Shown one piece after another: positions 1,930 through 8,260 of a DNA stretch of 64,000 nucleotides. The position numbers were made by a program, and so were the translations under genes. The stretch spans positions 1 through 64,000 of the forward strand of contig JANXYK010000011.1 in assembly GCA_025350055.1 (NCBI GenBank). Reading direction: 5' to 3'. The notes beneath the pieces are model-generated. The model had not been told where the DNA came from, did no database searches, and worked only from the letters and a program-made list of their open reading frames with translations. Within the stretch, counting starts at the first letter, position 1. Every line of letters starts with the position of its first letter. Source of the stretch: Gammaproteobacteria bacterium. GTDB lineage: Bacteria; Pseudomonadota; Gammaproteobacteria; Steroidobacterales; Steroidobacteraceae.

Positions 1930-3465
1930 ATGAGCGCCAAGCGGGCCCTGATCGTCGACGATTCGCGTTCCGCGCGCGCCTTCCTCAGCCGCATCCTCGA
2001 ACGCTACCAGCTGCAGGTGGACAACGCGGCCTCGGCCGAGGAAGCACTCGACTACCTGACGCGCTCGTGTCCCGATGTGATCTTCATGGATCACCTGATG
2101 CCGGGCATGGATGGCTTCCAGGCGCTGACCGCGATCAAGAACGATCCGCGCACCGCGACCATCCCGATCATGATGTACACCTCGCAGGAAGGTGAGCTGT
2201 ACCTGAGCCAGGCGCGCGCGCTGGGCGCGTTGGGCGTACTGCCGAAGCAGACCAAGCCCGCCGATGTCAGCCGCGCGCTCGAGCAACTGCATCTGCTGGG
2301 CGAGCCGCTGCCGGTGCCGGTGGGCGACACCGCGCAGCACAACGTGCTGACCGCCGAAGTGCCGGCATTGGCGGCGCGCGCGCAGGCGGCGGCGAACTAC
2401 GCCGCGCCCACGATCGGAGCCGCCGCGCCAGGTGCCACGGCGGGCACCGGGAGCGGCGCAGCCAGTGGCGCCGGCAATGGCTCGGGCCTGAGCGCCGAAG
2501 CGCGCGGCCTGATCGAAGCGATGTTGCAGGAGCACGCGCGCGAGATGCGTCGTGTGTTGAGCCAGAGCCTAGAGAAACACAGCGCGCGCGTAGTGGCGGA
2601 ACTGCGTGCGGTGCTGGCCGCGCAAGGGCAGGTGACGGCACCCGGCGCTCCGGCAGATGTGAAAGACAGCGGGCCGGCGCGGGGCGCGGTCGATGCCGAT
2701 GGGGCGCGCGTCTGGCGTGCGCGAAGCAGTCGCGTCGTATTGTGGTTGAGTGCCGCGGCCGCATTGTTTGCCTTGCTCGCGGGCGCATTGTGGCTGGGCT
2801 CGTGGTGGCTGGGTACGCACACGGAAGCCGCAGCCTCCGGGCCAGGTGGTGTGAGCGCCGAACGCGCGGCGATTCCCACGGCAGCAAACCTTGCAGCACC
2901 GATAGCGGGGCGTGAGCCAGGCGCAGTCGCGCAGACGATCGCGGCCGCGAACCCGGCAGCTGGTGCAGCCGCGGCGCCTGGATCGTCCGGCGCAGCACCG
3001 GTCAGCGGCGCCGCACCGTCGTACGTGGATCCCGTGCCCTTCGGAGAATCGCCGTTGGCAGGCGCACGTACCGAACACCTGCAGGCGGCACTGGAAAAAC
3101 TGCTGGCAGCAGGGTTCCACGGCCAGGTCGAGATCCGCAGCTTCCCCGGGCGCTATTGCCTGCAGGGCACGGGTGATGCGGTGGCCTTGGCCAGCGCCGA
3201 GATCAACTACGCGCGTTGCGACCAGATCGGCAATCCACTCGACCCGAGCGGGCCGGCAGCGCATGAGTCGGTGGCCTTCGCCAACATGCTGGCGGCAGTT
3301 CGCGCCCGCGCCGCCAGTGCAATCGAGGTGCAGGTGAGTGCTGGCAACGCCGACGAACTGAGCCTGCCGTATCCCGTAGTCACCGAACAACTGAGCGCCG
3401 GCGAATGGAACCGCGCCGCCGCCGCCAACAATCGGGTCGAAATGCGCTGGCACGCGAACCCTTGA
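1930..3465 (+). CDS. Receiver-domain protein with membrane anchor and periplasmic C-terminal domain
   Basis: A 511-aa protein with an unusual order of parts. Residues 1-120 form a CheY-like receiver with the acidic pair D10/D11 and phospho-acceptor D54 in the VIFMD strand. An Ala/Gly-rich linker and a short helical segment (about 180-230) follow, then a single transmembrane helix near residues 268-292 rich in Leu, Ala and Trp. The remaining 220 residues would be periplasmic: a low-complexity Ala/Pro/Gly stretch, then a folded-looking domain of about 120 residues with two cysteines. No DNA-binding or enzymatic output domain is recognised. The ATG at 1930 is preferred over an in-frame TTG at 1924. 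It overlaps the next gene by four bases. The periplasmic domain was not assigned to a family. Confidence 0.8.
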   Translation: MSAKRALIVDDSRSARAFLSRILERYQLQVDNAASAEEALDYLTRSCPDVIFMDHLMPGMDGFQALTAIKNDPRTATIPIMMYTSQEGELYLSQARALGALGVLPKQTKPADVSRALEQLHLLGEPLPVPVGDTAQHNVLTAEVPALAARAQAAANYAAPTIGAAAPGATAGTGSGAASGAGNGSGLSAEARGLIEAMLQEHAREMRRVLSQSLEKHSARVVAELRAVLAAQGQVTAPGAPADVKDSGPARGAVDADGARVWRARSSRVVLWLSAAAALFALLAGALWLGSWWLGTHTEAAASGPGGVSAERAAIPTAANLAAPIAGREPGAVAQTIAAANPAAGAAAAPGSSGAAPVSGAAPSYVDPVPFGESPLAGARTEHLQAALEKLLAAGFHGQVEIRSFPGRYCLQGTGDAVALASAEINYARCDQIGNPLDPSGPAAHESVAFANMLAAVRARAASAIEVQVSAGNADELSLPYPVVTEQLSAGEWNRAAAANNRVEMRWHANP

Positions 3466-4538
3466 GCCTCGACACCCAGCCACCGCTGACCGGCAGCACG
3501 GTGGATCGATTCAAGCCCAGCGCCTGGCTGCGCAGTGCGCATCTGCAGTCGATACTGCCGAGCCTCCCGCCTCGCAGTGCGCTCACGCGCTATCGTGCCC
3601 GCGCGCTGCGCCGCGACGGCCAGCCACTGATCCTCGATTGCGAGAACGGTGCGCGCCTGCAGGCCTGGCACAACCGTAGCGCCAGCTCTCAGGGGCGCCT
3701 CGCAGTGCTGTTGCACGGCTGGGAAGGCAGTTCGGATTCCTGCTACGTGTTGTCACTCGGCACGCGCCTGCTGGACGAGGGCTACGACCTGCTGCGGCTG
3801 AACCTGCGCGATCACGGCGGCACCCAGGCGCTCAATCACGGCTTGTTCCATTCCTGCCGGCTCGATGATGTGCTGGGCGCGCTGCGTGCCGCCGCGCAGT
3901 GCTACGGCGCCACGCCGCTGTACCTGGCGGGTTTTTCCCTCGGCGGCAATTTCATGCTGCGGGCCGCTGCCGAGCCCGCGCTGCCCGCCAGCGTGGCCGG
4001 CGTGGTGGCGATCTCGCCGGTGCTCGATCCAGCGCGCACGCTCAGCGCGCTCGAGGATGGCACGCGCCTCTATCACGACTACTTCGTGCGCAAATGGTCG
4101 GCGTCGCTGCGCATCAAGCAGCAGTGCTGGCCGGGTGACTATGATTTCAGTGAGCGCATGAGCAGTCGCAACCTGCGTCGCATGACCGATGAACTGGTAT
4201 GCGCGCACACGGACTTCCCCGATGTGCACTGCTATCTGGATGGTTATGCGATCACCGGCGCGCGCCTGCAGACGCTGCAGGTGCCGGCGCGCATCCTGGC
4301 GGCGGTGGATGATCCGATCATTCCGGCGGCAGACCTGGCGCATCTGGCGCCCACGAAGCTGCTGCAGGTGGAGTGCACCGCGCACGGCGGGCATTGCGGG
4401 TTCCTGAACTCCTGGTTCGGGCCGGCTTACAGCGACGGGTACGTGCTGGAGCAGTTCGCGCAATTCGCCGACACCGACGCCGAATCCGCCAGCGGCGGCG
4501 CCGCGGCTTGCGGCGCGAATCGCCTCAACGCAGCATGA
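3462..4538 (+). CDS. YheT-like alpha/beta hydrolase
   Basis: Alpha/beta hydrolase of the YheT/ABHD (UPF0017) family, 358 aa from the TTG at 3462. The opening FKPSAWLRSAHLQSILPSL resembles the family's N-terminus. The nucleophile elbow is GFSLGGN with Ser near residue 159, the acid is in AAVDDPIIP, and the histidine lies in HGGHCGF near the C-terminus. Substrates of bacterial members are unclear; esterase or lipase activity is usual. The chosen TTG start overlaps the preceding stop as TTGA, suggesting translational coupling. An in-frame ATG at 3405 would add 19 Arg/Gln-rich residues that look like out-of-frame readthrough of the upstream gene. The 3' end overlaps the end of the convergent glycerol-3-phosphate dehydrogenase gene by 14 bp. 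Confidence 0.85.
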   Translation: MSLDTQPPLTGSTVDRFKPSAWLRSAHLQSILPSLPPRSALTRYRARALRRDGQPLILDCENGARLQAWHNRSASSQGRLAVLLHGWEGSSDSCYVLSLGTRLLDEGYDLLRLNLRDHGGTQALNHGLFHSCRLDDVLGALRAAAQCYGATPLYLAGFSLGGNFMLRAAAEPALPASVAGVVAISPVLDPARTLSALEDGTRLYHDYFVRKWSASLRIKQQCWPGDYDFSERMSSRNLRRMTDELVCAHTDFPDVHCYLDGYAITGARLQTLQVPARILAAVDDPIIPAADLAHLAPTKLLQVECTAHGGHCGFLNSWFGPAYSDGYVLEQFAQFADTDAESASGGAAACGANRLNAA

Positions 4539-5700
4539 GCTGATCGGTGCGCGCCACGGCGCGGCGCGGCGGCAGCGAAGCGCTGACCTGTTGCAGGGCG
4601 CGCGCCGACACGGCGCGCCAGGTGGTGAGTTTGCCGCCATACACGGAAAGCACGCGCGGCTGACGGGCACGATCGGTGTGCAGCATTGTCTCGCGCGAGC
4701 GGTGGAAGGCATGACCTTCACCGCCCGGCAGCACGCGCAGGCCCGCGAAGCTGCCGAGCACCGGCGGCGAGGCCGCGCCACGCCAGGCCGGAAAATAGTG
4801 ATGCAGCACGCCTTCGAGATAATGGATCTCGTGCGCGGCCGGATGCACGTCGGCCGGATCGCCGCGATAGCGCACTTCGGTGGTGCCGACCAGCGTGCGA
4901 CCCTTCCAGGGCATCACGAAGATCGCGCGCCCATCGCGCGGACTTTCCAGGTAATAGAAACCGGCGCGCGGCTGGTAGTCGATCATGATGTGCGTGCCCT
5001 GCACCAGTTGCAGTGCAGGCACTTCGATCTTGGGCGTGATCGTGTGCGCGAGCGTACCGGCCCAGGGGCCGGCGGCATTGATCAGCACGCGAGCGCGGCA
5101 TTCCTTGTCGAGCTGATCCTGCCGGTAGCGCACCTGCACGGCCGCGCCTTCGAGCGTAGCGCCCACAAAGCTGGCCGGCATCGCGAACGTAGTGCCCAGC
5201 GCCTGCGCCGAGCGCACCACTGCCGCGGTCAACAGCGCATCGTCGGTCTGCGCATCGTGGTACCAGAACACCTGTTCGAGCTCGTGCGTATCCAGGCCAT
5301 CGAGTTCGCCCCAGCGACTGCGTGGCACGGTGCCGAAGTGTGCGCTGCGATCGAGGCCCGCGAGCAGCGCATAGAGTGCAAGACCCATGCGCAACTGCCA
5401 GGGGCGCCGGCGCGTGTGGCGATACACCGGAATGTGAAAGGTTTGCAGCTTCACCAGTTCGGGCGCCAGCTTCAGCATCAGCGCGCGCTCGTGCAGGCTC
5501 TCGCGCACCAGTCGCCATTGACCCGACTCGAGATAACGCAGGCCGCCATGGATCAGTTTGCTCGAGCGGCTCGAGGAGCCCGCAGCAATGCTGCTCTGCT
5601 CGAGCAGCAGCACCGAGTGGCCGGCTGCGCTCGCCGCCTGCGCAATGCCCGCGCCGTGGATGCCGGCGCCCACCACCACCAGATCGTAATCCTGGCTCAT
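4525..5700 (-). CDS. glpD: FAD-dependent glycerol-3-phosphate dehydrogenase (GlpD-like, short form)
   Basis: Flavoprotein of 391 aa that should oxidise sn-glycerol 3-phosphate to dihydroxyacetone phosphate and pass electrons to the quinone pool at the inner membrane. The dinucleotide fold GAGIHGAG begins at residue 11. The family segments SSRSSKLIHGGLRYLE and the C-terminal SVYGGKLTTWR are intact. It stops soon after the second segment, so it lacks the C-terminal helical cap domain of the roughly 500-aa E. coli GlpD; this may be a short subfamily rather than a truncation. The start ATG overlaps the stop of the upstream glycerophosphodiester phosphodiesterase gene as ATGA, so the two are co-translated and form a salvage path from glycerophosphodiesters. 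Confidence 0.82.
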   Translation of the reverse strand: MSQDYDLVVVGAGIHGAGIAQAASAAGHSVLLLEQSSIAAGSSSRSSKLIHGGLRYLESGQWRLVRESLHERALMLKLAPELVKLQTFHIPVYRHTRRRPWQLRMGLALYALLAGLDRSAHFGTVPRSRWGELDGLDTHELEQVFWYHDAQTDDALLTAAVVRSAQALGTTFAMPASFVGATLEGAAVQVRYRQDQLDKECRARVLINAAGPWAGTLAHTITPKIEVPALQLVQGTHIMIDYQPRAGFYYLESPRDGRAIFVMPWKGRTLVGTTEVRYRGDPADVHPAAHEIHYLEGVLHHYFPAWRGAASPPVLGSFAGLRVLPGGEGHAFHRSRETMLHTDRARQPRVLSVYGGKLTTWRAVSARALQQVSASLPPRRAVARTDQLMLR

Positions 5701-7858: not shown

Positions 7859-8260
7859 TCAGGGCACGGCGGCGCGCTTTTCCTCGAACTCGATCACCGG
7901 CTCCTTGCCGGTACAGATCATTTCGCCTTCGACCAGCGCACCGCGCGCAATCGCGATCAGTTGTGCGCTGACACGGCCACGGATGCGCGCGCTGGCGCCG
8001 ATCTCGAGTTTTTCATCGACCACCAGGTCGCCGCTGAGACTGCCGGCCACCACGGCGCGGCGCGCATGGATATTGCCTTCCCACTGCGCACCGTTGGCGA
8101 TGGCGACTTCGCCGCCGACCCGGCCATTGCCATGCACGATGCCGCTGACGAGCAGTGCGCCCTGGGTTTCGATGTCTCCGCGCAGCACGGTGTGCTGGGC
8201 AATCAGGGTGGGCGTCGAACCCAGGCGGTCGAGCAGACGGCGGCGCGGCAGTTCAGACAT
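7859..8260 (-). CDS. Bactofilin-family polymer-forming protein
   Basis: A 133-aa protein of the bactofilin (formerly DUF583) family, small cytoskeletal proteins that polymerise without nucleotides through a right-handed beta-helix. The central region shows the six-residue-periodic pattern of short hydrophobic strands with glycines, running from IAQHTVLRGDIE to ALVEGEMICTG, framed by short disordered tails. Such proteins often recruit cell-wall enzymes or affect shape. The gene is alone, convergent with the sugar dehydrogenase gene, and divergent from a SPOR-domain lipoprotein that may also act at the wall. No membrane-targeting helix is evident. Confidence 0.85.
   Translation of the reverse strand: MSELPRRRLLDRLGSTPTLIAQHTVLRGDIETQGALLVSGIVHGNGRVGGEVAIANGAQWEGNIHARRAVVAGSLSGDLVVDEKLEIGASARIRGRVSAQLIAIARGALVEGEMICTGKEPVIEFEEKRAAVP

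Follow-up and report, generated by a model that had tools for sequence, protein, structure and literature searches.

A membrane-anchored response-regulator family in Gammaproteobacteria with a divergent OmpA-like domain

The window, meaning the whole stretch of 64,000 nucleotides that was analysed, carries on its + strand a gene at 1930..3465 that encodes a response-regulator receiver joined to a membrane segment and a further folded domain. The open reading frame runs from an ATG at 1930 to a stop codon ending at 3465, and its 511-residue product is laid out as a receiver (REC), a linker with a helix, a transmembrane (TM) segment, a second linker, and an OmpA-like domain. Upstream, on the same strand, lie a PAP2 phosphatase (141-683) and, following it, a GT4 glycosyltransferase (737-1885). 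The nearest NCBIfam models to the latter are monoglucosyl-diacylglycerol and GlcN-phosphatidylglycerol synthases, matched far below their cut-offs, and the two genes are a possible glycolipid pair. Downstream, also on the + strand, is an alpha/beta hydrolase (3459..4538, start approximate), whose best NCBIfam match, below cut-off, was PRK10985, a model that we take to be YheT. Beyond the hydrolase, the - strand encodes a FAD-dependent oxidoreductase (DAO, presumably GlpD-like), a GDPD protein, and a bactofilin (7859-8260; PF04519, E 1.2e-20), while a SPOR protein is encoded on the + strand.

To place the protein in a family, we scanned genome contigs with tblastn. At E <=1e-3, 433 of 468 candidate stretches matched, some of them perhaps through the receiver only, and the best 80 were kept. 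Complete frames were available for 73 of these relatives; the other seven had frames open at the end of the locus and were dropped. The relatives retain the architecture down to ~33% identity. The order of parts described in an earlier note on this DNA, from receiver through a flexible region and a membrane segment to a C-terminal domain (C-domain), is seen both in the protein and in its relatives. That note had also called for a domain-architecture search and knew of no named family with this order. In our search Pfam recognised the receiver alone, with nothing beyond it found in the window protein, and homologues shared the architecture. The best 25 of 88 NCBIfam matches to the window protein were all receiver matches, far below their cut-offs. 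There was no convincing Pfam match for the C-domain either, and no named family was found to include this order. Judged from its sequences, the protein is a member of a membrane-anchored response-regulator group without a name, which is a real family and more than chance.

The receiver domain covers residues 4-122 (1939..2295, +). Pfam Response_reg (PF00072) matched residues 7-117 with an E-value of 1.4e-23 and 83.6 bits, against a cut-off of 30.2, and the receiver part of the full-length model matches known receiver structures. In a 56-row family alignment (A2, the window protein and 55 of the 73 relatives), D10, D11, D54 (codon at 2089-2091, +), T84, S85, and K106 are invariant, which bears out the intact CheY-like receiver with D54 that had been proposed earlier. 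Because these active-site residues do not vary, the receiver looks able to be phosphorylated. V103, three residues ahead of K106, is also invariant, and its position is presumably where CheY carries its aromatic switch. Mean column identity was 80% in the receiver (27 chosen rows) versus 48% in the C-domain (70 rows), making the receiver the most constrained part of the protein. The 70-row C-domain alignment omits L043 (an X, joined frame) and L063 (without a C-domain), as well as L025 and L033, for which the tblastn match stopped early though their C-domains look complete.

The full-length AlphaFold2 model, built from the 56 rows, gives the order of segments after the receiver as a disordered stretch, a helix at residues 189-233, a second disordered stretch, a TM helix at 262-302, a third disordered stretch at 304-359, and a fold at 364-509. 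The predicted long helix (2494..2628, +) has a pLDDT of ~90 and a nearly invariant R207/R208 pair, and may form a coiled coil or serve dimerisation. pLDDT falls below 50 at 127-184, 240-255, and 304-359, suggesting that the linkers are disordered on either side of the membrane. The last of these stretches belongs to an Ala/Pro/Gly-rich linker (residues 303-363; 2836..3018, +) that is poorly conserved. The earlier note had also proposed one transmembrane helix, and this agrees with the single strong hydrophobic segment found, whose core at residues 269-287 (2734..2790, +) has a mean hydropathy of 2.34; the next best stretch after residue 130 reaches only 1.14.

The C-domain covers residues 364-509 (3019..3456, +). 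It had been described as about 120 residues with two cysteines. The two cysteines are there, C410 (3157..3159, +) and C430 (3217..3219, +), and they are the only ones after the membrane segment in the window protein, but the folded part is larger, at ~146 residues. Modelled alone with AlphaFold, the domain reached a pLDDT of 92.1 and a pTM of 0.84, and its modelled core follows the strand/helix order E-H-E-H-E-H-E with small extra elements. Foldseek returned modest E-values (best 0.0096, probability 0.97), and its first 50 rows were mostly MotB, Pal, OmpA, TagL, OprF, TssL, and YfiB domains, with a few others such as Dot/Icm and LPHT-ring chains. The highest VIA-align Z-score was 6.5, a value that the tool itself classes as middling; the 50 chains listed were mostly OmpA-like, with an LPHT-ring chain in the top row and one fatty acid kinase protein among them. 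The earlier note had considered that the C-terminal part might turn out to be a known cytoplasmic domain; the folds matched were mostly OmpA-like domains.

For the profile comparison, the OmpA set came from 30 loci of related genomes, of which 18 gave an OmpA domain by a motif cut and were used. Against these 18 domains, the narrower C-domain alignment (A1) scored a weak 22.2 (probability 8%), and the addition of 32 divergent sequences, giving an extended alignment of 102 rows, raised the score to 29.5 (probability 47%). Column-shuffled versions, 150 in all, scored at most 20.8, and the reversed OmpA alignment scored 18.8. A Pfam search of 70 members yielded no convincing match for the C-domain; the best hit, from a single member, was to an unrelated family and had an E-value of 0.0099. 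PF00691 was absent among the 14 Pfam families listed for these members at E <=10, a range in which HMMER filters drop most matches above ~0.1. Searching PDB sequences with the C-domain profile produced a single hit, at E 1.7. Taking the fold comparison together with the independent profile comparison, we regard the C-domain as a divergent OmpA-like domain.

Of the 74 proteins, the window protein among them, 72 have exactly two cysteines after the TM segment (all but L043 and L063), and both are present in 96 of 96 distinct aligned C-domains, distant ones included. A C410-C430 disulfide may be expected, and the pair probably pins an insertion in the C-domain. R380, Y481, P482, W493, N494, N500, and R502 are invariant or near-invariant. 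At the Asp and Arg positions that we assume hold diaminopimelate in classical OmpA domains, the Asp region is gapped and most rows have Q, E, or T in the Arg column (site 446), in a part of the alignment that is uncertain. OmpA-type domains usually hold on to the cell wall, and the C-domain here may bind the cell wall or a periplasmic partner. The OmpA-like domains matched are, as is commonly known, periplasmic.

Because one TM segment follows a cytoplasmic-type receiver, and given the fold and the invariant cysteine pair, we infer that the C-domain is periplasmic. That the hydrophobic segment fails to span the membrane, or that the C-domain lies in the cytoplasm, is very improbable in our judgement. 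The K/R balance across the family is what speaks for it, since it is not positive-inside: K/R residues flanking the TM segment are fewer before it than after in 38 of 74 sequences, equal in 22, and more in 14. Against it, the best segment has a hydropathy of 1.64-2.71 in all 74 sequences (window and 73 relatives), with runners-up of at most 1.61, while 16 of the 17 other receivers of the window genome have a best downstream value of at most 1.36 and one reaches 1.64, though stretch ends may cut some of these frames. The periplasmic character of the matched folds and the invariant cysteines argue the same way. The window protein itself has four K/R before the segment and none after, which fits the positive-inside rule. 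Use of that rule as proof of topology was dropped, as the charge balance of the family does not support an N-in orientation.

The C-domain was found in 25 of 369 genomes of the class Gammaproteobacteria (a single match each, two in G153) and in 48 of 117 genomes of the order (a single match each, two in G767 and in G839). In a phylum-wide sample, 2 of 398 genomes had it, both from this same class. From these three counts, the REC-TM-OmpA family looks lineage-bound within Gammaproteobacteria. Named hosts include Steroidobacter agaridevorans, Peristeroidobacter agariperforans, and Povalibacter uvarum. In a plasmid collection, no place covering 80% of the protein was found. One contig labelled Bythopirellula (Planctomycetota), L047, contains a family member placed among Woeseia-type rows by the trees, and the metagenome-assembled genome under this label is likely contaminated.

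The receiver reaches beyond proteins with the C-domain. A family receiver profile at E 1e-30 matched in 32 of 274 class genomes: 19 matches were of the OmpA type, 9 had a C-terminal hydrophobic segment, two were L128 and L134, and two (G202 and G221) came without a locus to inspect for a TM segment. A second search added L175, L193, and L194, for a set of 12 tail-anchored receivers in 11 genomes (L135, L137, L138, L139, L140, L141, L142, L143, L144, L175, L193, and L194). In these, the hydrophobic segment ends 0-4 residues from the C-terminus and, by eye, follows a long coiled-coil-like stretch that is often Ala/Glu-rich. L128 (frame starting near 1369) shares the receiver and TM segment, but its C-terminal domain is a different one that has its own two cysteines, and a swap of the periplasmic module seems to have taken place there. 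In L063, the member (4001-5179) ends ~120 residues past the TM segment in low-complexity sequence. The C-domain profile, run in all six frames, found no match in the available locus DNA of L063, L128, and 13 further loci, among them tail-anchored ones; that run had no positive control, and the same profile worked in another run.

Trees of the receivers rest on 123 columns, with other receivers of the window genome as outgroup, and contain 49 OmpA-type receivers in the first tree and 27 in the 86-receiver tree and the third, from which five long own-genome rows were removed. In the tree of 86 receivers, 39 membrane-anchored rows form one clade (100/99), in which the 27 OmpA-type rows form one clade of their own (100/95) nested among the tail-anchored rows. 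The tail-anchored rows come out as basal through forks supported at 92-99/69-79 in this tree and at 95-99/88-93 in the first, which has other rows. With three odd rows added in the third tree, whose bootstrap was not settled, the anchored clade had 41 rows (100/95) and the OmpA type grouped with L128 (98/95). The OmpA type thus shares common ancestry with the tail-anchored receivers, and since it is nested within their clade, the OmpA-like domain was probably added once to a receiver that was already membrane-tethered. In the 86-receiver tree, the sister of the membrane clade could be PilG-like, PilH-like, or other rows, and no clean score line separates anchored from soluble receivers. L195_5 (96.8 bits, without a TM segment) was omitted from the 86-receiver tree and groups with PilH-like rows in the third, and L134 falls inside the anchored clade, yet has no TM segment in its frame.

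This history suggests that membrane tethering of the receiver is the older role. The linkers predicted to be disordered on both sides of the membrane, together with clade relatives without a periplasmic part, are why we favour tethering for the present protein as well; disordered linkers would argue against rigid transmission across the membrane. The earlier note had suggested that phosphorylation could act outward on the envelope. Such an inside-out switch, in which phosphorylation would alter the grip of the OmpA-like domain on the wall or on an outer-membrane partner, is less favoured than tethering, and we consider it unlikely. A single chain does combine a cytoplasmic input, a TM segment, and an envelope-type domain, the near-invariant C-domain residues listed above suggest a real ligand, and the long helix at 189-233 could dimerise on phosphorylation. 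The same flanking linkers and the same-clade relatives count against such a switch, as does L128, whose different C-domain after the TM segment means that the receiver can work without the OmpA-like module.

Pil-Chp is the system steering type IV pili, and it is to this system that the tethered receiver appears closest. By profile score, the nearest receivers outside the anchored clade are of the PilH, PilG, and ChpA type. The scores directly beneath those of the anchored receivers belong to short receivers (mostly ~120-190 residues) and to terminal receivers in very long CheA-like kinases. In the window genome, two short receivers are clustered with a 1845-residue frame containing Hpt (three stretches), CheA dimer and ATPase domains, CheW, and a receiver. 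This arrangement is a Pil-Chp layout, with the system as described in PMC12632253. We assign the names PilG, PilH, and ChpA to its proteins on that presumption.

PilG presence was scored as a match to the window genome's PilG at E 1e-30. Of the class genomes that have the C-domain, which are spread over 16 families, 25 of 25 gave a PilG match, versus 171 of 344 without it (Fisher p 6e-8, kinship not corrected). In the order, the figures were 48 of 48 versus 14 of 20, the latter examined out of 69 genomes without the C-domain (p 3.5e-4). Taking the class and order sets together, with three genomes common to both, PilG is present in 70 of 70 distinct genomes with the C-domain. As a yardstick, FliG was found in only 42 of these 70, which indicates that C-domain genomes are not just stocked with motility genes of every kind and that the protein is not tied to flagella. 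A MotB-like flagellar role had been among the candidates and was dropped, as 28 of the 70 genomes have no FliG match. Five genomes from the window genome's family (G017, G811, G824, G847, and G859; 98-100% complete) have PilG and no C-domain match, and would be natural counterparts in a comparison of pilus traits.

From this sequence evidence, it seems to us an evenly balanced proposition that the protein is a receiver tethered to the envelope which either serves Pil-Chp signalling, with ChpA as its kinase, or derives from it. ChpA would be a hypothetical kinase, since kinship and co-occurrence are what point to it. Several observations weigh against the Pil-Chp reading. PilG co-occurrence may reflect lifestyle, the 14 of 20 order genomes that have PilG without the C-domain being a case in point. 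In the window genome, the gene lies outside the pil-chp cluster (contig C10 versus C17). PilG was matched in 8 of the 11 genomes with tail-anchored kin and not in the other 3. The 86-receiver tree leaves several candidates, PilG-like and PilH-like rows being two among them, for the sister of the membrane clade. The OmpA ligand residues are not kept, and the charge distribution of the family does not support N-in topology.

The neighbouring genes offer a different reading, that of an orphan envelope receiver unrelated to Pil-Chp, regulating the adjacent glycolipid-type genes or the hydrolase by membrane contact. Neighbours were counted by tblastn in the 73 relatives. The hydrolase is the commonest, directly downstream in 45 (3 of the 73 have fewer than 1,000 bases downstream), and the GT4 gene is directly upstream in 23 (6 of the 73 have fewer than 1,400 bases upstream); in the window, PAP2, GT4, the receiver gene, and the hydrolase follow one another on one strand. 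By the same counts, the hydrolase is not directly downstream in 28 relatives and the GT4 gene not directly upstream in 50, so that lipid-type neighbours occur in a minority, and Woeseia-type loci have other neighbours, one of which looks like gshA by eye. Because adjacency varies in this way, a role tied to the neighbours is kept as a rival to the Pil-Chp reading, and we regard it as quite unlikely. A bactofilin match is also present in the loci of 24 of the 73 relatives.

The common view of response regulators is that of soluble outputs. Literature searches of open-licence texts returned, among the matches listed, no description of a REC-TM-OmpA architecture or of tail-anchored response regulators, which supports absence only weakly; a membrane-anchored response-regulator layout with an OmpA-like domain is apparently undescribed. 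Among known systems, PilH and PilG are the closest in receiver, as the scores and co-occurrence above indicate, and differ in being single-domain and cytoplasmic or polar in the parts of the source consulted (PMC12632253). The Pil-Chp receivers named in those parts are PilG, PilH, the receiver domain within ChpA, and ChpB, with no membrane-anchored one among them (PMC12632253). MotB/PomB and TssL/TagL likewise have one TM segment followed by an OmpA-like fold. Unlike them, the present family gives no PF00691 match, does not conserve the ligand Asp/Arg, and has an N-terminal receiver where they have their motor or secretion part, in genomes that lack FliG in 28 of 70 cases. HubP/FimV resemble it in having a wall-binding periplasmic module, one TM segment, and a cytoplasmic part recruiting signalling proteins, as described for HubP; they differ in having LysM rather than an OmpA-like fold and the opposite order, with no receiver in the portion of that description consulted (PMC8789113). 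REC-HalOD1 and REC-MetOD1 similarly fuse a receiver to a lineage-specific domain, with no periplasmic domain behind a TM segment in the sections consulted (PMC5847659).

The mechanism that we prefer, a predicted one, is that of a single-pass response regulator of the inner membrane. The cytoplasmic receiver would be phosphorylated on D54 and would act through contacts made in the cytoplasm. The helix, TM segment, flexible linker, and periplasmic OmpA-like domain would hold the receiver at the membrane, the OmpA-like domain probably keeping the protein against the cell wall or a periplasmic partner. The protein probably descends from a membrane-tethered receiver related to PilG/PilH. It would most likely give the Pil-Chp chemosensory system, with ChpA as kinase, one more receiver, an immobilised one, and may compete with or position PilG/PilH-type signalling at the envelope. 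More tentatively, and with the balance somewhat against it, the protein could represent a third class of Pil-Chp receiver, membrane-anchored and wall-facing, whose phosphorylation, at a set position in the envelope, would mark or gate the sites at which pili are active; this class would be part of a general, unnamed gammaproteobacterial clade whose members are either tail-anchored or equipped with a periplasmic module.

Soluble response regulators differ in design from a conserved clade whose receiver is fixed in the inner membrane and, in one branch, joined to an OmpA-type domain on the far side. In an anchored design of this kind, phosphorylation would be tied to a place in the envelope. How a spatial signal is translated into pilus polarity is described as incompletely understood in the part of the literature consulted (PMC10519157). 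If the protein is a Pil-Chp receiver, the pathway behind twitching polarity would gain a component that is fixed in space.
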